The translations under genes and the position numbers were made by a program. From Pseudodesulfovibrio aespoeensis Aspo-2 (GTDB lineage: Bacteria; Desulfobacterota; Desulfovibrionia; Desulfovibrionales; Desulfovibrionaceae), in assembly GCF_000176915.2 (NCBI RefSeq), contig NC_014844.1, forward strand, positions 434,001-498,000: a stretch of DNA of 64,000 bases. Reading direction: 5' to 3'. The notes beneath the pieces are model-generated. The model ran no database searches. It saw only the letters and a list, made by a program, of their open reading frames with translations, and was not told where the DNA came from. How positions within the stretch are numbered: position 1 is the stretch's first letter; every line of letters begins with the position of its first letter. Shown here piece by piece: positions 14,680-41,445 of the stretch.

Positions 14680-14763
<84 letters not shown>

Positions 14764-14766
<3 letters not shown>

Positions 14767-16707: not shown

Positions 16708-19700
16708 CTAAATATCCAACTCCGGCAATCCGTTCACGATCTTCATTGTCTCCAGGCTTACGGTTATCACGCGCATGAAGAGTTCCAGCGGGTAGCGCGG
16801 GTTGTTCATGGTTTCAATGGCCCAGTCGTTTGCATCGTTGACGATGCCGCTTGCCTTGTCGGTCTTGACGCATTGGCGTTCCACTATCCAGTCGAGGGCG
16901 GGTTTGCCGTTCACTACGTAGTCATAGGCTTCCAGCGGGATGCCTTTCAGGGTGATATGGGCGTTGTAGATGAGCGTGGTTTTGTCCTTGCCCTTGCCGT
17001 ATTTCATCTTGACCACGCGGTATTGTTCGGCGGCCAGTTCCTTGCCGCCCGTATCCACGGTGACGGGGTACATATCCACGGTTTCATAATTCAAATGCAG
17101 GTCTGCCAAGTCCCGGCCCGCTTTGCTGAAGGCCCAGAAATCGGCAGCGGTTTTCACGCATGGGATACGGGGCAGCTCTTTGCTCAGGTTGTCCTTGAAC
17201 CGCTCCCGGTAATCCGGGGAATGGAGCAGGCCGTACACGTAATAAAAGATATCTTCCTTGCTGATGGCTTCGCCGGGGTAGGCCGCGTGGAAGTGCGCAA
17301 GGCCTTCGTCGGTTATGGCATCGCGTTTGGTTCGCTTGGCTTCTTTGGGCTTGGGTTCATCAAAGAGGCTGGCTTGTTTTTGATTTTTGGCGGGCTTTTC
17401 CTCTTCATAATAATAGAGCGGAAAGCACTGGACTCCTCCATCGGTTTGGACATCCACAACCCTGTCAACCAATAAGGCAAACTGACCATTCCCAGTCCAT
17501 CTCTGTTTGAGCATGATTGCTTTATTATCTACTGACGACTCTGGAAAGATGCTTGGCATCATGTAGCGATTTTCATTGTAGAAGCCATCATAATAATGCC
17601 AACACTTGCCAAAAGGGCGATACATTGATCGCTGCACATGCTCTGGAACATAATCGCACTTAATGCCTTTTTTATGGCGTCCGCGCAAAATCCATGACCA
17701 TCCGATTTTAGTCGGGTCGTTCATGCTTCGGTGTTCCGTGTATTCAATGCATTGATTGTAGAAAGAAATCATACTCTGAATATTGCTTTCAAGCTGGTTG
17801 CAAGAAGCATTATAAGCCCAGCTGTCACGATTAGTTTTAACACCTGAAGAATATACTGAAAACAGCGTTGCTGAAGATTTGTTCTTCTTGTCACCAACAG
17901 GTATAAAAGCATCGAAGGTTGCATCACGTTGATCAAGCCAATCAGCATGTTTGTTTGGAATAATAATATTCCAATCATTTGCCGTGGCAATGCCGTTGAT
18001 ACTTGTGTAGTTGGACACTATATCAAGCTTTTCTTCACGGCTTAAATATTCTCCTACATCGCAATAGTTAATCTGCCCTTGCTTTTCAGCATTTGGATTC
18101 TTGATCAGCAAAGTGATGGCAATGGGGGAGCGACTTCCGCTCCCAAATATCTTGCCACCTTCTTTCCTTGATTGCTCTCCAGAGGTCCGCTGATTTCCTC
18201 GCAAGTTAAACACATAAGTACTTGAAAATTCACTAACTAAGCACTTCCGCATTCCATCCGCTGCTTTTCCGTTCAGAAAGCCAGCATTAGACACGAAGCC
18301 GATGATTCCACTGTCTTTTATACGACTAGAGGCCCATCGAAATGCTCTGATATAGCTGTCGTATAAACTTCTCGGATTTCCAGTAGACGCTTTTACATAT
18401 GTGTTTTGTATTTCTTCATCTAACCCAGCGTATTTTACGTTTGCGGCGTCATCGTTATCGCTCTTCTGCCCAGAAGAATACGGCGGATTGCCTATAATCA
18501 CTCGAATATCCAATTTTTTCTGTCGCATCCTTCGCTCGCTGTTGTCTTCTAACAACTCGCTAATCATGTCCTTCCTTTCATACATTTGGAAGGTGTCAGT
18601 CAGGCAAATACCCTCGAACGGTTCATACTTCCCCTTGCCGCCCATGAGGGTGTGGTAGACCGCCTCGATATTGATTGCGGCGATGTAGTAGGCCAGCAAA
18701 ACAATTTCATTGGCGTGAATCTCATGCTTGTACTTGTGGGGGAGCTGTTCCGGCGAAATCAGGCCACTTTGCAGGAGACGGGTGATAAACGTGCCGGTGC
18801 CGGTGAAGGGGTCGATGATATGAACCCCCTCGCTGCCCAGCGTCTGGCCGAATTCGCTTTTCAGCACGTCATTGACGCTATGGATGATGAAATCCACCAC
18901 CTCGACGGGCGTGTACACGATGCCCAGGCGTTCGGTCATTCTCGGAAAGGCGTTGCGGAAGAACTTGTCATAGAGTTCAACCACGATTTTCTGTTTGCCT
19001 TCGGCGTTGTCGATGCCTTCGGCCCGCAGCTTCACGCTGTCATAGAACTTTTCCAGCGTATCGGCTTCCTTGTGCAAATGATGCCCTTCCAAGGTGTCCA
19101 ACACCTTTTGCATTGCCTGCGAGATCGGGTTTTGCTGGGCAAAGCTGTAGCCCTCGAACAAGGCTTCAAATACGGGCTTGGTCACAAGGTGCTGGGCCAG
19201 CATTTCAATGATTTCTTCGTCCGTAATGGAGTCATTGAGATCGTCCCGCAATTCGTCGGCAAACTCGGCAAACGCCTTGCGCTCCTGCTGGTTGCCTTCA
19301 TTGTCAAGGATCGCATGAATCCGGCTGATATGAGTCTGGGCTATCTTGGCAATGTCATTGGCCCAGTCTTCCCAGTGGTGGCGGTTGCCGCATTTCTGCA
19401 CCAGCTTGGCATAAATGGCGCGTTCAAAGTCGCCAATCTCAAAGGTAAGCTGTTTCGCTATCGGGTCGCGCCGGGGCGTTTCGGCCTCACCTATGCCGTA
19501 TTCGCCCTTGCCGGTGTGGGTTTTCTTTGCGGCTGTCTTGGCATTGATCTTGTCGGTTATGGAAATGACTTCGATTTTGCTGATGTCAGGGCCGACGAAC
19601 TCGGTTTTGTTCACCATGGCGTCAAAGCGGTCGTCATGCGAACGCAGGGCCTGCAACACCTGCCAGACGACCTTGTAGGTCACGTTGTCATTCAGGGCTT

Positions 19701-21549
19701 CATGGGGTTCCTTGCCTGCCGGGATAACCACGGGGAGAATGACATAGCCGCGCTTTTTGCCCGGAGCGTTTCGCATGACCCGGCCCACGGACTGAACCAC
19801 GTCAACCTGAGAATTGCGGGGAGTGAGAAACAGGACGGCATCCAGCGCAGGAACGTCCACGCCCTCGGAAAGACAACGGACGTTGCTCAGGATACGGCAG
19901 GTGTTTTCCGGCACCTCGGCCCGGAGCCAGTCGAGTTTCTCTTCCTTCGCGCTGGCGTTCATGGAGCCGTCTACATGCTCGGCCTTGCAAATGAGCGTGG
20001 AAGCAAGTTCGTCCTGTTCGGTCTTTTGGTATTCCTGGACAACCTCTTCAAACATGGCCGCTATGTTTTTAGAGCTGACCTTGTGTTTGCGCGCGTTCCT
20101 CGCAATCTCAATGACCTGGCAAAAGGCAACGGCCCGTTTCATGGGGTTGGTATCGTCCACAAGATCAGTGGTCACGTCCTGCTTTGAAAGAGCCTTCCAG
20201 CAACCAATGATCTTGGCGGCATCGTCAACCTTGAGTTGATTGTCGCCGGATTTTAGCAGGTCTTGAATACGGCGGCTGACATGGCCTTCGTCAACGGACA
20301 GCACCAGCACCTTGTAATCGCACAACAGGCCACGTTTGACGGCTTCGGAAAAGTTGATGACGTACAGGTCTTTGCCGTACCGCTCTTCATCGTCCATGGA
20401 GCAAAGCACAATGTCATCGCGCTCGGCAGTGGCTTTTGCCGTGTCCCCGTAAATGCGCGGGGTCGCGGTCATGTAAATGCGCTTCGCGGCCTGGATGAAG
20501 CGGTTCTCATGGACCTTGACAAAGTTGCTCTCATCATCCCCGGCAAATGTCGCGCCCGTGGTCCTATGCGCTTCGTCGCAAATAATCAGGTCGAATTGGG
20601 GCAAGTCGTGGTCGTATTGGGCTTGGCTGAGAACATCGATGGAGTGATAGGTGGAAAAGACCACGCTCATGTGCTGGCTGTCGTGGCGTTTCACCATTTC
20701 CTTTGCCAGCTTGTCCGGTTGCGTGGTGGCCGGGTAGCGCAATTCGTGGGTGAAGACCTGTACGCTGTCATCGTCCGTTTGGCGTTTCTTGCCCACGTCG
20801 CTATCGGAACACACGGCAAAGCTATGCAAGGGCGTTGCGCTCTCTTGCGTCCATTCCGTGAGGGTCTGGGAAAGCAGGGCAAGGCTCGGCACCATGAACA
20901 GAACACGCTTCCCCTTGCCTGCCAGTCCTTCGGCAATCTTCAGGCTGGTCAAAGTCTTGCCGGTTCCACAGGCCATAATGAGCTTGCCACGGTCTGCCGT
21001 TTTCAATCCCTTTTCAACGGCAGTGTATGCGTCCTGCTGGTGGGGGCGTAAGACCTTTTTCGGCTTCAAGACCGGCTCGGCCTTGGGTTGGTATTGCGCC
21101 CAGTCGATTTGACTGTTTTCAAGGTCGTGCAGGTCGATTTTGTTGACCGGAGGGAATTGGTCGCTGAGGGAGTCTTCGGCGGGCTTGCTCCACTTGTTCG
21201 TGGTGCAGACGATGATGCGGTTTGTGAAATACTTCTTGCCCGAGGCCGTGAAAAAGCTGTCTATGTCACTCTTTTGAATCGTGTGGTCCTCGCCATAGAG
21301 CTTACACTGGATAGCGTGGAATTCGTCCGTGCCTCGCGTCTTCGCCACAAGATCAATGCCGGTGTCCCGCTTCGCCAGCCCTTGAAGCTCGGCCCATTCC
21401 GCATACCTCCATACATCGCTGTACAGGTCTTTGTAGGTGGCCTCATTCCTGAGATAGCAGATAGTCAGTTCTTCAAAGTAGGTACCTTTTTCGCGCTCAG
21501 AGACAGCGGCGTTGCGGTAGGCGTCGAGGATATTTTGAAGGGCGGTCAT
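16708..21549 (-). CDS. Single-chain type ISP restriction-modification enzyme (LlaGI-like)
   Basis: The protein has 1613 residues, the size expected of type ISP enzymes. The order is an Mrr-like nuclease (GIDLVAK with Asp66, then AIQCKLY about residues 79-85), a superfamily 2 helicase (Walker A MACGTGKT about 192-199, DEAH near 325, then TATP), a coupler, an N6-adenine methylase (DPFTGTGTF near 911, NPPYS near 1020) and a C-terminal target-recognition region. Such enzymes methylate one adenine and, on unmodified DNA, translocate and cut after head-on collision. All catalytic motifs are intact. The last 250 residues and the helicase are richer in GC than the TRD part, which suggests domain shuffling. 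Confidence 0.9.
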   Translation of the reverse strand: MTALQNILDAYRNAAVSEREKGTYFEELTICYLRNEATYKDLYSDVWRYAEWAELQGLAKRDTGIDLVAKTRGTDEFHAIQCKLYGEDHTIQKSDIDSFFTASGKKYFTNRIIVCTTNKWSKPAEDSLSDQFPPVNKIDLHDLENSQIDWAQYQPKAEPVLKPKKVLRPHQQDAYTAVEKGLKTADRGKLIMACGTGKTLTSLKIAEGLAGKGKRVLFMVPSLALLSQTLTEWTQESATPLHSFAVCSDSDVGKKRQTDDDSVQVFTHELRYPATTQPDKLAKEMVKRHDSQHMSVVFSTYHSIDVLSQAQYDHDLPQFDLIICDEAHRTTGATFAGDDESNFVKVHENRFIQAAKRIYMTATPRIYGDTAKATAERDDIVLCSMDDEERYGKDLYVINFSEAVKRGLLCDYKVLVLSVDEGHVSRRIQDLLKSGDNQLKVDDAAKIIGCWKALSKQDVTTDLVDDTNPMKRAVAFCQVIEIARNARKHKVSSKNIAAMFEEVVQEYQKTEQDELASTLICKAEHVDGSMNASAKEEKLDWLRAEVPENTCRILSNVRCLSEGVDVPALDAVLFLTPRNSQVDVVQSVGRVMRNAPGKKRGYVILPVVIPAGKEPHEALNDNVTYKVVWQVLQALRSHDDRFDAMVNKTEFVGPDISKIEVISITDKINAKTAAKKTHTGKGEYGIGEAETPRRDPIAKQLTFEIGDFERAIYAKLVQKCGNRHHWEDWANDIAKIAQTHISRIHAILDNEGNQQERKAFAEFADELRDDLNDSITDEEIIEMLAQHLVTKPVFEALFEGYSFAQQNPISQAMQKVLDTLEGHHLHKEADTLEKFYDSVKLRAEGIDNAEGKQKIVVELYDKFFRNAFPRMTERLGIVYTPVEVVDFIIHSVNDVLKSEFGQTLGSEGVHIIDPFTGTGTFITRLLQSGLISPEQLPHKYKHEIHANEIVLLAYYIAAINIEAVYHTLMGGKGKYEPFEGICLTDTFQMYERKDMISELLEDNSERRMRQKKLDIRVIIGNPPYSSGQKSDNDDAANVKYAGLDEEIQNTYVKASTGNPRSLYDSYIRAFRWASSRIKDSGIIGFVSNAGFLNGKAADGMRKCLVSEFSSTYVFNLRGNQRTSGEQSRKEGGKIFGSGSRSPIAITLLIKNPNAEKQGQINYCDVGEYLSREEKLDIVSNYTSINGIATANDWNIIIPNKHADWLDQRDATFDAFIPVGDKKNKSSATLFSVYSSGVKTNRDSWAYNASCNQLESNIQSMISFYNQCIEYTEHRSMNDPTKIGWSWILRGRHKKGIKCDYVPEHVQRSMYRPFGKCWHYYDGFYNENRYMMPSIFPESSVDNKAIMLKQRWTGNGQFALLVDRVVDVQTDGGVQCFPLYYYEEEKPAKNQKQASLFDEPKPKEAKRTKRDAITDEGLAHFHAAYPGEAISKEDIFYYVYGLLHSPDYRERFKDNLSKELPRIPCVKTAADFWAFSKAGRDLADLHLNYETVDMYPVTVDTGGKELAAEQYRVVKMKYGKGKDKTTLIYNAHITLKGIPLEAYDYVVNGKPALDWIVERQCVKTDKASGIVNDANDWAIETMNNPRYPLELFMRVITVSLETMKIVNGLPELDI

Positions 21550-21754
21550 TGGAGGCTCCTGAAGATGATGCTAGCGGCTTTGCTTCAAACGAAACGGAGG
21601 TTAGTATCCATAATTAATGCTGATTCCGCATCAATCCATAAAATCACCCATGCGGTATTTGAACAAAAAGGCAAAAAGCATTCACCGTGAGTAAATACTT
21701 ATTGCCTTAAAAAGCAAGCAAAACGGACCCGTTCTGAAAACAGCAAAGTTGACC

Positions 21755-22011
21755 GGAAGGTTTCACCCGCGCCCTGAAAAGTCCGGGTGTAAAGACGGCT
21801 AGAATTTCGATTTTGGCCGCTTTTTTAGAGGGAGGTTTCATCCGCGCCTTTTGTCGAAATGGGCTTTTGGGCCGTCCTTTAGTGGGAGGTTTCACCCGCG
21901 CTTTGTTGTTTTGGATATTTAGCAGGAGGTTTCACCCGCGCCTTTTGGGAGGTTTCGCCCGCGTCTTTTGGGAGGTTTCGCCCGCACCCTTTGGAAGGTT
22001 TCGCCCGCGCT
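21755..22011. repeat. Seven iteron-like repeats with narrowing spacing
   Basis: Copies close to GGAGGTTTCACCCGCGCC start at 21755, 21831, 21886, 21925, 21948, 21971 and 21993. The start-to-start distances are 76, 55, 39, 23, 23 and 22 bp, so the last four form a regular tandem array. The later copies read TTTCGCCCGC. Regular 22-bp repeats of this kind are typical of plasmid origins (iterons), and a probable replication initiator is encoded at 37253-38446 in the same element. No coding potential is convincing here. Confidence 0.75.
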
Positions 22012-22019
22012 TCCGGTGT

Positions 22020-22860
22020 CTTTCTTCATATAAATTTGATAGTTGAAGCATCTCTCCCTTTTTCCCATAATCCCTTAATCCCTCCCAAGAAACTAAGAAA
22101 AAGTAAGGGACTCGAAAAGTTAAGCTTCCAGGAAGTGGGATGGCCGCCCAGCATTCGCCCCCCCTTCCATGACGGCCGCAAAGCGGCCTAAATGAGCCAT
22201 AAGCACATGGAAAAGGAACCGTCGAAGGCGCGATGTGAAAACTGCCCACGGCGCAGCCTGTGGGCGAAACGCGGCAAAGCCGCGCAAGGCAACCTTGAGG
22301 GCGCGAGCGTGAACTCGTGGCGAGCTTGTCACCGCGAGTCACGCGACCGAACTGCGGAGCAGATCCGAAGGATGCTGTAAGAGCTTTAGGGCAACTAAAT
22401 ATAGCTGCTAGCCGGAATAATCCTAAGGATGTCGCCCCTGCTTCCCCCGGGGAGGGCGGGGTCTGGAAGAAGTTGCGCAACCGTCACATCACCCCCTTCT
22501 ACCTCCATCGCTTGAAATCCTGCATGCTCAGCCTCCAATCAAGGGGGTGCGGGTATGCCGCCGAATCGCAGACGAAGGTCGAGGAAAGAGTCATATTGGC
22601 AAGAGCAGGTAGCCAGGTGGAGTAGGAGCGGGTTGAGCCAAGCCGAGTTCAGCAGGCAGGCCGGCAGCCCTGGCTGAAGTACGGCGCCCTGAAGGGATGA
22701 GAGCGACCAACCCCTTCGGTAATGAGCTGTTACTCGTAACTCAATTGGTAATAGGTGGGAAAGCTCTCTTCCTTTGCAAGAAGGTGGAGAATGTTATAAT
22801 GTATTGGTATATAACATTATGACTAAATATTATTAGCGCAGCAGCGTTCATAGCTGGCCT
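22020..22860. other. Hairpin-rich region without a convincing gene
   Basis: Short perfect stems are present, such as GGCCGCAAAGCGGCC near 22170 and GCGGCAAAGCCGC near 22271, and a longer pairing of GAGAGC near 22700 with GCTCTC near 22762. The segment 22720-22790 resembles half a tRNA (AACTCAATTGGTAA, then a loop CTTTGCAAG), but the remaining arms are missing. The open frames found here have no recognisable family. It may be remnant DNA or a structured RNA. Confidence 0.4.
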
Positions 22861-22922
22861 CATTGGCGCGGGCACAGGATCGCGACGATTGCCGGTTTCT
22901 TCCAAGGACAAAGGGGGAGGCG

Positions 22923-23048
22923 ATGAAAGTTAACGCAGCAACATCTTGGTTCGGTCTCGGACTGGTTGTCATCGTGTTTATTTGCGGCTTTCTGTATGAT
23001 CGTTACGGCAGAAGAAAAAAGCCATCCAATAATCTTCATAAAGATTGA
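22923..23048 (+). CDS. Small single-span membrane protein
   Basis: The 41-residue product has one hydrophobic segment (about 8-24, LGLVVIVFICGFLY) followed by a strongly basic tail (RYGRRKK). The start has a strong ribosome site (AGGGGGAGGCG). It resembles no family I know; the layout suits a small membrane-anchored phage or plasmid product. It overlaps a possible second small gene by 4 bp. Confidence 0.5.
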   Translation: MKVNAATSWFGLGLVVIVFICGFLYDRYGRRKKPSNNLHKD

Positions 23049-23185
23049 GTTTGAATACCTCCGCAAGCCCCAATACACGAGAGGCAGTGGCTGCGTTGAT
23101 GGAAAGGCCTGAAACCGACCTCAAGCAACATGGCATAAAAACAGACTGCGTCATAAAGAAACACCTAAAAAGGCCCGGCAGATGA
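23045..23185 (+). CDS. Possible small gene translated from TTG
   Basis: A 46-codon frame starts with TTG that overlaps the preceding stop (ATTGA) and ends just before a terminator loop. The product is basic and hydrophilic and I do not recognise it. Translational coupling and the terminator directly at its end are the only support. Confidence 0.3.
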   Translation: MSLNTSASPNTREAVAALMERPETDLKQHGIKTDCVIKKHLKRPGR

Positions 23186-23203
23186 ATTCGCCGGGTCTTT
23201 TTG
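23170..23203 (+). terminator. Rho-independent terminator
   Basis: The stem GGCCCGGC/GCCGGGTC (one G-T pair) is followed by CTTTTTG. It closes the small-gene transcript from about 22900. Confidence 0.75.
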
Positions 23204-23639
23204 TTGTTTGAGAGGGGGGGAATCTGAAGTGTTTTCGATGTGTCACTCTCATCCTGGATATGTTTTGTATTAACCTCAATTTTGCCTACTGCAATAGGCA
23301 AAGTATGGGCATACTCAAGAGTACGATTTGGAGTTGACGAAATATTCGCTGCAAGCTATATTCATTGCATCAAACATCCTCTTTAGGATTCTGGCTCTTC
23401 TGCCAGCCTTATCAGGCCACTCAGTGAAGTCTGATGAGGGAAGAAAAGGTTATGTAAGCTCCTTGAATGTGCGGTTTTCGAGAACGGTCTGTTCTTGTTG
23501 ATTTGCCATTCGAATAACTTGCCAAACGGAAGTGAAAAGCTTCGAAGTAGGGCGGCCCGTATAGCTGCATCAGTTGAAAAACGTTAACCTGCATAAGTAG
23601 AACCAGTGTTTTCCAGCCTCACACGAAACTCGTGGTGGT

Positions 23640-24540
23640 ACGCCAAGGCGGTCCTTTAGAGGGGGCGGCTCCGTAAGGAGCATGGTCCCGTTGGAATTTG
23701 AAGCGGACGAGGTATACGGCCTTTACGCTTTTTTCGAGCAAGACAACAGTCTTGTACGCGTTCGGATGAACCCTCCACTCATCCAAACCCGGCATCAGTC
23801 GGGGATGAACGTTATCAAACCAAACTATCGGAGAGGGCTGGACTATTGCGTCCGGACTTCTAGCTCTTTTGATCCTTTCTGGCGCACGAGATCCTTTGTC
23901 TCGTGCACTCTGGGACGTATTCTTGCGTCCAACACAATCCCATACCTGGGAGAGCATCGCCCCCAAGTATGGGGGAGTGCGTTCCCCTCAATCATTGAGG
24001 AGAGCAACATAAAAAAGCATATCTAAAATCGCTTCGTTGGCTTGTTTGGGTATGAGCTTCGGCGCATCAGTTACGAGCCATTGAGCCTCGCAGAAGCCTT
24101 CAAGGACAAAGCGTTTCGTAGTGAATTCTACGCGCTTGAAGACACCATCCGCGAGAACGCCATCATCCAATAGAGAGCTGAGTCTGAAGACGCGATGCCG
24201 TGCTCGATTCAGCCGATTAACCCACACCATTAAATCTCGGGATGTTCTGCGGAACGTCCTACTATCAGAACATCCGTCCTGGAGGGGGACATACAGGGTG
24301 CTCACAACCGTGCGTGTTCCATGTCCACTGTCCGCTAACCTGTCCGGTTAGTTGGGCGGTGTGCATGGGCAAAACTCGCACGGCTCTAAGAGCGAAGCTC
24401 ACTTTTGTTCGCAGAACAAAAGTGAGCGACCTCTGGCTCAGCTTGTCTGAGCCAATTCCTTATCCGGTCGGTCCCGAAGGGGCAGCTGGTTCATATAAAC
24501 AGGAGACACCTGGACTCCTGCAAATAAACAGAGGACCACG
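23640..24540 (+). ncRNA. Candidate large structured RNA or DNA hairpin cluster
   Basis: Consecutive stems are visible over about 900 bases: GCACGAGATCC with its partner GTCTCGTGC (23883-23905), GGACG/CGTCC around 23910, CCCATAC with GTATGGG (23939-23976), CCTCAATCATTGAGG (23988-24002), GCTCACTTTTGTTC paired with GAACAAAAGTGAGC (about 24399-24429), TGGCTCAG/CTGAGCCA (about 24436-24455), and CAGGAG/CTCCTG near 24501-24521. I find no recognisable protein on either strand. It directly precedes the recombinase gene at 24616. It may be a long leader RNA, an independent RNA, or recombination-site DNA; direction is assumed from the downstream genes. Confidence 0.4.
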
Positions 24541-24615
24541 GAGCCGCACTCCTAAACTGTTCTATCTTAAGAATAATCGCAGCCCCTCGCAGGGCGGGCC
24601 GGAGGGATACAGAGA

Positions 24616-25605
24616 ATGAGAGGAAGTATAATTCGTCAATGCGGCGATGCTCTTCAGACAATCACCAGAATTGGGGAGAGCCGCCATGAGGCCAAGGCAG
24701 TCGGTGAAGTTGGAATCTATTCTACGAACACGAGGCATATAACAGGGCAGCGCCTGTTACCTTTGCAGGGGTTCTGCAAGGATCATGGAATCAAAGACAT
24801 TGAAAGGTTAACGACTGCAAACATTAAGGAGTATGTCGAAGCGCGATTGCGACACCACATGGCACAAGGCAATGCTCTGACGACATTCCGGGCAGAGCTT
24901 TCAGCATTGGGGAAGCTTGAGCAGGGTTTGAACCGGTATTTTGAGCTGCATCGAGCGGATCGGATTAAATATGATTGGAACCAACAGAGAAAAGAGATTT
25001 CACGACAGGCTGGAGAAGTGCTTTCTCGTTCTACCAGCACATACCGGGATCGGGCCTTTAAAGACCCTCAGGCCGTCGTTAACGCCATTTTTGACCCTGT
25101 GCACCGGCTTCAGGCGCAAATTCAATTAGAGGCTGGCTGCCGATCAGAAGGCGTCGGTGCCCCCTCTAAGGGCGTAAAAGGGCGCAACAACAATCCCATC
25201 ACTATGGCCAATTGGTATGAGCCGGGTGGCGGTAAGGCTCTAGGAGTCGTTCGAGATCCGATTTCAGGCCAAAACGTGGCTACTTTCTGGACGAAGGAAA
25301 AAGGCGGCAAAGTCGCGTTTCATTTTTGCACGCTGCGGACGAAGGATGCCATCCTGAGTCACATAGAGAAACACGGCAAACTTGAATCCAATTACAAGCA
25401 ATACCTCGATTCGGTGAATGAGGCGGCAAAAGCTGTTGGGCAGTTCCATCAAGGCCGTGGCACTCACTCTCTACGGCATTGTTTTGCCCAGGGGCGGTAT
25501 GACCAAGCCGTACGTCGAGGTTACTCCGATGAGCAGGCCAAATATGCGGTGAGCCAAGAAATGAGTCACAATCGAGCTGATATAACGGAGACCTATTTGC
25601 GATGA
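24616..25605 (+). CDS. Tyrosine recombinase, second in island
   Basis: The protein has 329 residues. A SAM-like N-terminal domain (about 1-110) is followed by a catalytic domain in which the first Arg is probably in LEAGCRSEGVG, the HxLRH box is HSLRHCFAQ, and the C-terminal His and Tyr are in MSHNRADITETYL. It is divergent from the integrase at the island end. The downstream gene overlaps by 4 bp (ATGA). It is preceded by the long hairpin-rich stretch, which may contain its recombination site or regulatory RNA. It could mobilise a smaller element within the island. Confidence 0.75.
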   Translation: MRGSIIRQCGDALQTITRIGESRHEAKAVGEVGIYSTNTRHITGQRLLPLQGFCKDHGIKDIERLTTANIKEYVEARLRHHMAQGNALTTFRAELSALGKLEQGLNRYFELHRADRIKYDWNQQRKEISRQAGEVLSRSTSTYRDRAFKDPQAVVNAIFDPVHRLQAQIQLEAGCRSEGVGAPSKGVKGRNNNPITMANWYEPGGGKALGVVRDPISGQNVATFWTKEKGGKVAFHFCTLRTKDAILSHIEKHGKLESNYKQYLDSVNEAAKAVGQFHQGRGTHSLRHCFAQGRYDQAVRRGYSDEQAKYAVSQEMSHNRADITETYLR

Positions 25606-26102
25606 GAGATACGGCCAAAATAAATCGGATAACAGGCATGTCGGTCCAGGAACGGCAAGACGCATTGCGCTGGTATGCTCGGCAGACCGAAGAGTTTAGG
25701 GTCAATCTGATGACAAACCGGTTCCGGCTTTTCTGCGATCTCAAAGCCAAACAGGTGGATAAAGATTTGGCCTTGCTTGAGTACGCCGCACTTTGCTTGG
25801 TATTGAAGTCAGAAGGATTTTTTGCGGAGAAGCGATACCGCAGCAAAAAGGTATTAGCCGACAGCGAGATCCAGTTGTTGAGGAAACGACGGACGGAAAA
25901 GGCCCAGGCAATCCAATTGAGAACTCGGAAGCGCGGCCAGGTCATGGAGCGATTGGCAAAAAAATGGGGAGTTGTCGTTGAGCTACGAGAGAATGGTCTG
26001 AGTTTTCGGGATATCGCGGTCTACTTGAAAGAGAATCATCAGTTAAAGGTGTCATGCGGCTACCTGCATGAAAAGTTCGTAGAGTGGGAAAAGAAGGAGT
26101 AG
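25602..26102 (+). CDS. Small DNA-binding partner of the tyrosine recombinase (predicted)
   Basis: The product has 166 residues and is highly basic and helical. The C-terminal part (ELRENGLSFRDIAVYLKENHQLKVSCGYLHEKF) looks like a helix-turn-helix of the type that reads GLSxRDIAxYL in mobile-element accessory proteins. It is translationally coupled to the recombinase, so it probably acts with it as an accessory or directionality factor. I do not recognise a named family with confidence. Confidence 0.6.
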   Translation: MRDTAKINRITGMSVQERQDALRWYARQTEEFRVNLMTNRFRLFCDLKAKQVDKDLALLEYAALCLVLKSEGFFAEKRYRSKKVLADSEIQLLRKRRTEKAQAIQLRTRKRGQVMERLAKKWGVVVELRENGLSFRDIAVYLKENHQLKVSCGYLHEKFVEWEKKE

Positions 26103-26132: not shown

Positions 26133-26384
26133 TTAATTGTCGAGCAATGCTTCGACGCCGCCCTCTTCCTTGGCTGCCTGGTATCGGTAAAAGGTGCCCC
26201 GCGAAAAGCCCATCAGCCGACAGGCCTTCGAAACGTTGTCGAGCTCTTCCGTCAGATTGAGCAACCCGACCTTGTGTTTTATGACGTTGTGATTGAAGCT
26301 GGACATGAGGTTCTCCTTGAGCGCTGGGCTCAGTTTGATGGTCTTCGACATTTCCATCAAAAGGGAGAACCTCTTGATTTTCAA
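26133..26384 (-). pseudogene. N-terminal remnant of an IS481-type transposase
   Basis: The reading NVSKACRLMGFSRGTFYRYQ followed by EGGVEALLDN is the N-terminal helix-turn-helix of IS481/IS3-like transposases. The frame stops there, and no catalytic domain follows. The likely original start is the ATG at 26303. It is not the missing part of the 15.2-kb remnant, which lies 11 kb away on the other strand. Confidence 0.65.
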
Positions 26385-38845: not shown

Positions 38846-40063
38846 TTATTGCTTCTCCAAGCTGTTTTTTAACAACTTATCCCACATCTCCATTACCAAC
38901 CGCTTCTCAGCCACGTGCTGAGACTTGTCATAGTGTTTTTCGCCCACGCCTTGTTCCCCATGATTAAAATGCCAATTAAGTAAATATGGAGCGCAGCCAG
39001 CATCAGACAAATGGGTTCGACACGTCCTGCGAATGTCACTTGGGCGCCAAAGCTCAACTTCCTCATGAGCACAAAACTTTTTCACAATGTCATTAATACT
39101 AGTGCAAGGCATAGTTTCCTTGGGACGCCAACGCTTCGGGAAAAGATATTGACTCTCGCCCTTAAGGCTTTTTATAATACTTACAGCGCGTTCAGTAAGC
39201 GGTACAACATGCTCCCTCTTATTCTTGGTTCGTTCGCCAGGAATAATCCAAATCATTTCTTCTAGATTGAATTCAGAAAAAGGAGCTTCGAGCACTTCTT
39301 TAACTCGCTGGCCACCAACCGCCAGAACAAGCCTAAAAAAAGAAGCAGTCTGGACAGTACAGTATTTATCCATGTTTTCCCATAACAGTTTAATTTCTAC
39401 ATAGCTTAAGAACCGATTTCTAGGTTGATATGCTGCTGCGTTGCGGGGAACAACTGCAACCGGATTTGCTTTCAAATCAAATTTGACGCACTGATTTGGG
39501 CGAAAGTAGTCAAATTCCCGCGAGATACCATAAGCAAATGCCCCATGAAGATATGACCTCAGGTGCGCCGCCATGGACGGCGCATCAGCGTGAACCTGCT
39601 CTAAAACGCGCTGAATATCCCGACTGCTGATTGTATTTGCCGCCCGATTTCTACCTAAATTGTCTGCAGCAGGAGTTACATTTCGGGAAGTAAGTAAAGA
39701 ACGCGCAACCTCTTTCCAAGATGTTTTATTTTGGGATCTTAGGTGATCAACATAGCCTTCAAAAAGGTCTTCAACGCTGCCGACGTCCCTCTCCTCTTCA
39801 AAAGCATACTGCTTGGCCTCCTTCATTTCGGAGTAGGTTTGAGGCCCCTCACAATTGCGGTGATTTGCTTTGAGTTGTCGAAGAATGTCATCACACTCTT
39901 TAGCGCTCACTTTATGCGAAGCCCAGCCAATAGCCTCCGACTTCGTTTTCCCTTTCAATTTGTAGGTTATCGTGAAGTACTGGTCATATTTGACCCCATG
40001 TCTTCTTTTCTTGTGTTTTCTATATCTTACGCCAGGAAAATCTGTCTTGTGCCAAACAGTCAT
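38846..40063 (-). CDS. Tyrosine integrase of the island
   Basis: The protein has 405 residues with the P4-type layout: an N-terminal arm-binding domain with KYDQYFTITYKLKGKTKSE, a SAM-like core-binding domain and a catalytic domain. The catalytic Arg is in AVGGQRVKEVLEAPF, the second box is RPSDIRRTCRTHLSDAG (Arg-x-x-Arg in place of the usual HxxR), and the end has WHFNHGEQGVGEKHYDKS with the Tyr. It sits beside attR, and arm-type repeats overlap its start, so autoregulation is likely. Confidence 0.93.
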   Translation of the reverse strand: MTVWHKTDFPGVRYRKHKKRRHGVKYDQYFTITYKLKGKTKSEAIGWASHKVSAKECDDILRQLKANHRNCEGPQTYSEMKEAKQYAFEEERDVGSVEDLFEGYVDHLRSQNKTSWKEVARSLLTSRNVTPAADNLGRNRAANTISSRDIQRVLEQVHADAPSMAAHLRSYLHGAFAYGISREFDYFRPNQCVKFDLKANPVAVVPRNAAAYQPRNRFLSYVEIKLLWENMDKYCTVQTASFFRLVLAVGGQRVKEVLEAPFSEFNLEEMIWIIPGERTKNKREHVVPLTERAVSIIKSLKGESQYLFPKRWRPKETMPCTSINDIVKKFCAHEEVELWRPSDIRRTCRTHLSDAGCAPYLLNWHFNHGEQGVGEKHYDKSQHVAEKRLVMEMWDKLLKNSLEKQ

Positions 40064-40225: not shown

Positions 40226-40283
40226 GATTCGTAATCAGTAGGTCCGGGGTTCAATTCCCCGTTCTGGCTCCAAGGAAATCAAG
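40226..40283 (+). repeat. attR: 58-bp copy of tRNA-Thr 3' half
   Basis: It is identical to 14709-14766. The 5' half of the tRNA is missing here, so this is a remnant att site and not a functional tRNA. Immediately downstream is a different terminator, which likely served the tRNA before the island arrived. The prophage integrase gene begins just beyond, so this may also be the prophage attL. Confidence 0.95.
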
Positions 40284-40413: not shown

Positions 40414-41445
40414 TCACTTCTTGTCGGTGGTCAGGTCGAGCGGACCTAGGCGCACGAGATTGACGGCGAGCTGCAAGGCATCATCCGTGACATCCGCGTA
40501 TGTGTCGGCGGTCACCCTGAACTCGGAGTGGCCAAGCAGTTTTTGCAGGGCCTTCATCCCTCCGCCGGATTCCAGCATGGCCACGGAGAAGGAGTGCCGA
40601 AGATCGTGCAGGGAAAGGTGGCCGAAGCCGCCGCGCTCCAGGGCGCGCTTGACCTCGTGGGTGTAGGTGTCGGCGTGGGCGTAGCGGTTGAAGATCCGGC
40701 CCTTGCCCCTCGGCATGGACTTGAGCACGGCCAGGAACGAGGCGCTCATCGGGTACGTCTTGCAGAGGTGCCGCTTCTCCTTGGCGATGAAATACTCGCG
40801 CCGGTCCCACATGATATCTTCCCACCGCAAGGCGACCAGCTCCGACCGGCGACGGCCGGTGGCCAGGCAGGCGACGACAAAGCGGCGCAGCCCGACATCC
40901 TCAATGGACCGGATGAACTCGGATATCTCTTTCGGCTCGATGAAGCCCACGCGCTTGGCCTGGGGCAAGAGCTTGGCTCCCTTGAAGGGATTGGCCTTCA
41001 GGTAGCCCCACTCGACGGCCTTGTTCATCACCGCCTTCGCGTGGCGCACGTAGTTGTTGATGCTTGACGGCTTCAGGTGGCGGTGCGTCCGCTTCAGCTC
41101 GTCCATGGTTTTCAGGGTGAGCATATCCAGGCGCTTGGTGCGGCCCTCGATGTCGATGACCTTGCGCATGGCCAGCCGGTTGGCCTTGAAGGTTTTGACC
41201 GGCTGTGTCTCGATGGCCCACGCCTCGAACTCGTCAGCGAACTGGCCCAGGTTCTTGTCGTTCTCACCTGTGATCCGCTGTATCTTGCCCTTGAGATATG
41301 CGTCCTTTATGGACCGGAGCAGTCGGCAAGCCTCGGAATAGTTGGTCGTACTTAGCGACAGCCGACGCCCGTCGAGCTTGTAGTAGTAGCTGGCCTTCCC
41401 GGCGACCTTGAGCGGCTTTTTGCTGATGCCCATGATGTCCGTCAT
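40414..41445 (-). CDS. Prophage tyrosine integrase
   Basis: The protein has 343 residues. A core-binding domain occupies about residues 60-150, and the catalytic residues are seen in TGRRRSELVALRW (Arg), LHDLRHSFSVAML (HxLR) and LGHSEFRVTADTYADV (His, Tyr). It lies directly inside the left boundary of the prophage. Its start codon overlaps the stop of the small DNA-binding gene by 4 bp. Confidence 0.93.
   Translation of the reverse strand: MTDIMGISKKPLKVAGKASYYYKLDGRRLSLSTTNYSEACRLLRSIKDAYLKGKIQRITGENDKNLGQFADEFEAWAIETQPVKTFKANRLAMRKVIDIEGRTKRLDMLTLKTMDELKRTHRHLKPSSINNYVRHAKAVMNKAVEWGYLKANPFKGAKLLPQAKRVGFIEPKEISEFIRSIEDVGLRRFVVACLATGRRRSELVALRWEDIMWDRREYFIAKEKRHLCKTYPMSASFLAVLKSMPRGKGRIFNRYAHADTYTHEVKRALERGGFGHLSLHDLRHSFSVAMLESGGGMKALQKLLGHSEFRVTADTYADVTDDALQLAVNLVRLGPLDLTTDKK

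Follow-up and report, generated by a model that had tools for sequence, protein, structure and literature searches.

The window, a stretch of 64,000 nucleotides, corresponds to positions 434001-498000 of the single-contig genome (3,629,109 bp) of Pseudodesulfovibrio aespoeensis Aspo-2. It contains a 25.5-kb island located between a tRNA-Thr gene and a 58-bp exact repeat of the 3' half of that tRNA. The left att repeat, which is the tRNA 3' half itself, occupies 14709-14766 and the right one, identical over 58 bp, occupies 40226-40283, both on the plus strand. The island integrase (38846-40063, minus strand; Phage_integrase, 1.8e-14) adjoins the right repeat. Island cargo includes a type ISP restriction-modification enzyme of 1613 amino acids (16708-21549) and Fic protein, radical SAM and glycosyltransferase genes. 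Neither a known relaxase nor a secretion system was identified among the island ORFs scanned. Behind the first island comes a second integrase (40414-41445), and the islands thus appear stacked. Att-like partial repeats also lie beyond the window at genome positions 510947-511007 and 524428-524484; they suggest tandem islands at this tRNA-Thr, which with its series of att-like repeats is a hotspot of integration.

Within this island lies a module that consists of a perfect hairpin, a structured leader, a tyrosine recombinase (TR) with an intact active site and a small helix-turn-helix (HTH) partner. The stretch 23640-24540, stressed in an earlier note on this DNA, forms the 5' part of the module. 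All parts are on the plus strand. The TR (24616-25605, 329 aa) and the HTH partner (25602-26102, 166 aa) overlap at an ATGA. Upstream, a promoter-like TTGACG-17-TATATT (23334-23362) is a candidate leader start; it has 10 of 12 matches, and the region has 3 such sites compared with 2.9 by chance. The proposed structured leader or non-coding RNA, a predicted transcript that shows a stem excess and has comparable leaders in relatives, would extend from 23363 to 24615. It includes a string of small hairpins at 23739-24000 (23739-23754, 23764-23784, 23884-23906, 23939-23973 and 23986-24000), within which the segment 23850-23998 folds with a z of -3.26. Next comes a long imperfect stem with apical TAACCTGTCCGGTTA (24307-24384, fold z -7.0). 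Its counterpart in L037, the locus of the closest relative (TR 67% identical), has a z of -7.7 and a different stem sequence but retains the tip TGTCCGGTTA (L037:5706-5778). A 47-nt block at 24382-24428, 96% identical between the window and L037, holds a perfect 14-bp hairpin (24397-24427), our proposed oriT or relaxase-recognition hairpin. One of its base pairs is A-T in the window and G-C in L037, and the hairpin motif is single-copy in the genome. It lacks the T-run of a transcript terminator and was therefore rejected as an intrinsic terminator. Judged by eye, L037 has other hairpins in place of the two that follow, TGGCTCA/TGAGCCA (24434-24454) and CAGGAG/CTCCTG (24500-24520), and the 3' segment of the leader around CACTCCTAAACTGTTCTATCTTAA (24546-24571) is like GACTCCCTAAACTG in L006 and CTATCTTAAGAA in L037. 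Just outside the module, an IS481-type HTH gene fragment lies directly 3' (26133-26384), part of which is 79% identical to genome positions 2992206-2992307, and six imperfect GGAGGTTTCACCCGCGCC-type repeats, 23-75 nt apart, lie between the restriction enzyme gene and the stretch reported earlier (21749-22011).

The high density of stems that drew attention to 23640-24540 is real. With arms of at least 6 bp there are 9 non-overlapping perfect stems, compared with a mean of 1.65 in dinucleotide shuffles (0 of 200 reach 9); with arms of at least 8 there are 3, compared with 0.09 (0 of 200). Both stems named in the earlier note could be located, GCTCACTTTTGTTC/GAACAAAAGTGAGC at 24397-24427 and CCCATAC/GTATGGG at about 23939-23973. 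By the same test, the excess is absent in the TR gene and in a nearby control stretch outside the module. A weaker excess is seen at 22020-23330 (7 stems versus 2.4, with 1 of 200 shuffles as high), for which no tie to the module was found. The originally claimed span of 22020-24615 should thus be shortened: its second part is conserved, but the unit begins near 23334 and not at 22020. The whole of 23600-24600 folds at -407.9 kcal/mol, a raw energy with no shuffled baseline at that length. Several ORFs of 60-125 aa are present in the span, and as the earlier note had stated, no protein family is recognizable: none of the ORFs tested in 22860-24616 has a Pfam or NCBIfam match above cut-off. Large ornate RNAs such as GOLLD, ROOL and HEARO are, like this stretch, large structured non-coding regions on mobile DNA. 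The likeness to large ornate RNAs suggested in the earlier note is not borne out by Rfam: nothing in the module scores at or above the gathering cut-off of a family, and in the window and ten loci tRNAs alone do so.

The catalytic residues of the TR (R176, K229, H284, R287, H318 and the nucleophile Y327) are invariant or nearly so in the aligned homologues. An AlphaFold model (pLDDT 91.9) consists of an N-terminal helical domain of about 135 residues, with a weak Phage_int_SAM_1 match, and a catalytic domain. Its best fold matches are XerH, IntI4 and Cre, and by sequence profile the best solved relative in the PDB is IntI4 (4e-7). Given the separate integrase and the 58-bp att repeats of the island, it is improbable that the TR serves as the island's integrase. 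The HTH partner matches HTH_38 below cut-off only and has a helix-turn-helix-like stretch at its C-terminal end. Its family adjoins the TR in most relatives, either downstream, or upstream (~75 aa) in gamma plasmids and divergently on some plasmids; the family profile includes one out-of-frame seed (L047), and its E-values are indicative only. The arrangement of a structured stretch leading into a TR and a coupled DNA-binding protein is kept by homologues from many phyla. In gamma plasmids (L149 and similar Klebsiella ColRNAI plasmids), the TR stop overlaps by 4 nt with the gene of a 232-aa protein without a recognised family, possibly a further mobilisation gene.

Relatives of the TR are present in 18 further genomes of the same class. 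A profile search identified 49 loci, a few of them shared with the earlier set, in Desulfobacterota, Campylobacterota, Aquificota (Persephonella) and Elusimicrobia, and in metagenome-assembled genomes labelled Bacteroidota, Caldithrix and Gracilibacteria. The profile was needed to find the genomic relatives, as single-sequence scans of genome contigs and viral contigs gave no match. Among plasmids, tblastn with a relative returned 135 records, mostly from Klebsiella, Vibrio and Aeromonas; 127 of the 135 are typed non-mobilizable. A DNA-level plasmid search with the leader gave no match. No relative was confirmed in the IMG/VR viral contigs, either by single sequence or by profile, leaving the reading as a prophage or phage module unsupported.

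In 47 homologues, 250-nt pieces upstream of the TR fold with mean z of -2.0 and -2.6; pieces taken within the TR gene average -0.64, and randomly placed ones -0.4 to -0.8. Perfect hairpins with arms of at least 10 are about six times enriched there (0.94/kb versus 0.16/kb elsewhere); the scan counted perfect arms only, and no such match was seen in a sizeable minority of the homologues. The arms have a common core, CGCTTTAGG, CGCTATGTA or CCGTTTTTGTC. It reads GTCGCTTTAGG in Persephonella and Geomonas, CTCGCTTTAGGC in a Desulfovibrio, CCGTTTTTGTC in Geobacteraceae, GGTTTTGTTG in the sister genus, CTTTTGTTC in the window and CGCTATGTAC / CGCTAGGTT in gamma plasmids. In the outer stem the sequences vary but the palindrome stays, which suggests that sequence and folding are both maintained. 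The spacing between the conserved arms varies from 13 to 15 nt among close copies and over a wider range in the family. A different pattern is seen upstream of the TR on plasmid pTRACA66 (L036, 2130-2210), where three tandem GTTCGTA-N6-TACGAAC inverted repeats have a constant 6-nt spacer that contrasts with the variable hairpins of other loci. Several relatives have a TTGACA promoter-like site 3' of the hairpin (by eye), which argues that hairpin and leader are probably separate parts. The upstream unit thus probably combines a DNA-site-like part, the long perfect hairpin whose core is conserved, with an RNA-like part, the covarying leader. Leaders are about 240-1250 nt long and in most families end just before the TR start. 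Those of the gamma plasmids contain 11 ACAGYnAA-loop hairpins on the sense strand versus 0.49 expected (2 on the antisense strand) and, close to their 3' ends, an invariant GTTCTTAC. The ACAGYnAA-loop hairpin also occurs five times in the sister genus, but none turned up in L037 or the window.

The sister genus has many copies of a ~5.7-kb element at different genomic places. The element has ~740 nt of non-coding DNA followed by TR, HTH, an unknown protein of ~310 aa and a serine recombinase (loci L040-L050, L053 and L092; L047 has a phage-type integrase instead of the serine recombinase). Their right ends abut hairpin-like host sequences that resemble terminators, and L091, L093 and L094 are internally deleted derivatives that retain the left end. 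L089 is a chimeric copy: its homology to L041 ends at the 3' edge of the hairpin, and leader and TR differ. Covariation analysis of aligned relatives, the check called for in the earlier note, revealed compensatory changes. The leader stems covary in 14 sister-genus copies, whose consensus structure has 96.5% of cells paired; this structure is itself a product of the alignment on which it is scored, a circumstance in its favour. Sixteen pairs are changed on both sides versus 8.7 in shuffles (0 of 500), and the covariation score is 0.211 versus 0.141 in shuffles (0 of 500) and 0.04-0.07 when the pairing is slid, where shuffles keep column make-up but not relatedness. Alignment across distant leaders gave no usable consensus (energy near -3 for the delt and ninA groups; 0 for gamma plasmids over 480 nt), and we therefore claim covariation for the 14 sister-genus copies only. 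A comparison of G-U with A-C pairs as a test of the RNA strand, with helices chosen by rule in the sister-genus copies, is mildly positive at 47:32. A strong bias of this kind, seen with hand-picked helices, was dropped as decisive after the rule gave 47:32 and slid pairings fell on both sides of one.

Transfer genes stand beside the TR in some relatives. L037 has an integrase at a tRNA and, just 3' of the module, a T4SS-family gene; two small ORFs lie between structured segments. In L038 (TR 54% identical), an integrase, a TraG_N gene (1.8e-44) and a TraN gene (5.2e-22) adjoin the TR, and there is no long leader directly upstream of it. At L038:2621-8207, TraN-like and TraG-like genes thus stand beside a TR module outside the Gammaproteobacteria; L038 may represent a parasite, similar to SGI1, that exploits F-type conjugation systems in Desulfovibrionaceae. 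SGI1 is the Salmonella island in which the closest known system was described; its transfer requires the TR-type relaxase MpsA, the hairpins of oriT and a structured sRNA whose gene lies between oriT and mpsA (PMC6414798, PMC9299015).

We assign a probability of roughly 0.6 to the reading that the window module is a conjugative mobilisation module, or what is left of one, belonging to the integrative island of 25.5 kb, with a hairpin oriT, a TR relaxase, an HTH helper and a leader RNA for transfer. Integration is already provided for by the integrase and att repeats of the window island and by the serine recombinase of the 5.7-kb elements, suggesting that the TR has another job. An order like that of mobSGI1, the TraG, TraN and T4SS neighbours and the separate integrases of the carriers together lead to mobilisation, and the 127 of 135 plasmids typed non-mobilizable count in its favour. 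So do the enriched hairpins with their common core, the folding and covariation of the leaders, the sense-strand ACAGYnAA loops and the fold matches, XerH and Cre being also the best templates of MpsA. Weighing against it are the N-terminal domain of the TR, the minority of homologues without a perfect hairpin, the chance-level promoter in the window, the lack of a long leader in L038 and the mild 47:32 ratio. From the arrangement and the neighbours we infer that the hairpin at 24397-24427 and its flanks would be the transfer origin or its recognition site, that the TR would be an atypical relaxase that nicks or binds the folded hairpin DNA, and that the HTH protein would be its DNA-binding helper. 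Covariation and the SGI1 parallel suggest that the region from promoter to TR may be transcribed into a structured RNA required for transfer, as sgm-sRNA is for SGI1. The secretion channel would be supplied by a helper element in the same cell, which is assumed because no secretion system was found among the scanned island ORFs. The module presumably still works. A more speculative extension, which we hold only tentatively, is that the TR complex itself contains the leader RNA as a structural or targeting subunit, which binds the TR and/or the HTH protein and docks the folded hairpin DNA to the conjugation machinery, which would make these TRs or relaxases RNA-dependent across phyla. The earlier idea of an undescribed mobile module with an RNA or folded-DNA part thus survives in its main point, as the arrangement is kept and the leader stems covary in the sister-genus set, but not as a self-contained recombination element: the island has its own integrase and att sites and is probably not moved by the TR, and the best parallel is mobSGI1.

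The strongest competing explanation, which we regard as unlikely but worth serious consideration, is that the TR is an ordinary site-specific recombinase, either a plasmid multimer resolvase or an element recombinase, acting on the hairpin as an inverted pair of binding arms, and that the leader tunes expression only. The TR retains every catalytic residue and a core-binding-like domain, the fold matches XerH, IntI4 and Cre, many carriers are small plasmids in need of dimer resolution, and the break in homology between L089 and L041 falls at the 3' edge of the hairpin, as if exchange had happened there. However, arm spacing ranges from 13 to 15 nt even in close copies and more broadly across the family, where a crossover spacer would be fixed; the window genome has a single copy of the motif; and carriers have a separate integrase or serine recombinase. 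An ordinary recombinase would also leave the TraG and TraN neighbours and the covarying leader unexplained. We consider it improbable that hairpins and leader are purely cis-regulatory, serving the TR operon as an operator plus an attenuator or translational control. Hairpins do lie near promoter-like sites and the leader does end just before the TR start in most families, but about 240-1250 nt with conserved loops and 3' ends exceed the needs of an attenuator, and the comparable SGI1 RNA acts in trans and is dispensable for mpsAB expression (PMC9299015). Very improbable is the integron-like model, in which the hairpin is a folded single-strand recombination site, as the earlier note had offered, and the upstream small ORFs and stems are captured cassettes. 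IntI4, which uses folded single-stranded attC, is the best solved relative of the TR profile, and the two small ORFs between structured segments of L037 would fit; yet there is one site in the window genome and no cassette array with repeated sites, the arms are perfect without bulged bases, and the site stands directly before the recombinase. That the stems are chance, or the span decayed protein genes, is hardly credible: several ORFs of 60-125 aa are present, but those tested match no family above cut-off, none of 200 shuffles reaches the stem excess, and the compensatory changes in relatives contradict it.

If the mobilisation module works like that of SGI1, whose sRNA requirement is so far a single, unexplained case, then a recombinase-type start of transfer assisted by RNA would be widespread, from islands of sulfate reducers to small Klebsiella, Vibrio and Aeromonas plasmids. 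Such plasmids would now be typed non-mobilizable because relaxase-based typing misses the module, and estimates of which plasmids and islands can spread would change. The family would also offer many natural variants for working out the role of the RNA, and a search profile of hairpin core, leader, HTH and TR for finding more modules. The module probably enables DNA islands and small plasmids of many bacterial groups to travel from cell to cell with the help of other elements.

Among known systems, the closest parallel is mobSGI1 of SGI1. It too has a TR-type enzyme with catalytic R/H/R/Y, an inverted-repeat oriT upstream of the TR gene (here the conserved hairpin is the candidate oriT) and a structured RNA on the same strand between oriT and TR (here predicted, as the structured covarying leader). 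The mobSGI1 order is matched, all in one orientation, by a promoter-like site, then small ORFs or none, an oriT-like hairpin, the predicted structured RNA, an mpsA-like TR and a second small gene. In SGI1 the RNA starts at a TTGACG-type promoter and its transcript also reads small ORFs, to which the promoter-like site and predicted transcript here would correspond; the sgm-sRNA promoter P5 is ttgacg-16-taatat (PMC9299015). The SGI1 oriT lies within the transcript, as the window hairpin lies within the presumed transcript. The IME context of SGI1 is shared by L038, with integrase, traG and traN, whereas the window island has integrase and att repeats only. MpsA, TraG and TraN are core SGI1-family proteins. 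Searches baited with MpsA, TraG, SgaC and TraN uncovered relatives of SGI1 whose oriT stems persist although the sequences have diverged (PMC8409611). The best structural templates of MpsA are XerH and Cre.

There are also differences from mobSGI1. The partner here is an HTH-like protein (166 aa; ~75 aa in gamma plasmids, and divergent on some plasmids), not described as core-binding-like; a core-binding-like domain forms the N-terminal part of the TR itself; the module has a hairpin core and leader motifs of its own, and its range extends far beyond the Gammaproteobacteria. MobK (pIGRK) and TcpM (pCW3; MOBM) are likewise TR-fold enzymes of small or conjugative plasmids, encoded next to intergenic DNA that bears hairpins (PMC8152469, PMC12857230), and the oriT of MobK is just upstream of its gene. 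MobK, TcpM and MpsA are stated to be without a core-binding domain (PMC8152469), and for MobK and TcpM neither PMC8152469 nor PMC12857230 mentions a structured RNA. IntI/attC, the source of the closest sequence-profile relative in the PDB, shares with the module the idea of a hairpin substrate, but here there is a single site with perfect arms and no cassette array. XerH/difH and other single-recombinase systems of dimer resolution offer the best fold match and a palindromic site near the gene; here, in contrast, the arm spacing is not fixed and there are a structured leader, an HTH partner and transfer-gene neighbours. Because the TR has an N-terminal helical domain, we report the module as a variant and not as a member of the MpsA/MobK/TcpM kind. 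The best reading, drawn from these parallels, is that of a separate and wider variant that would work like SGI1's, with a core-binding domain in its TR and an HTH partner, set apart by the published descriptions of MpsA, MobK and TcpM.
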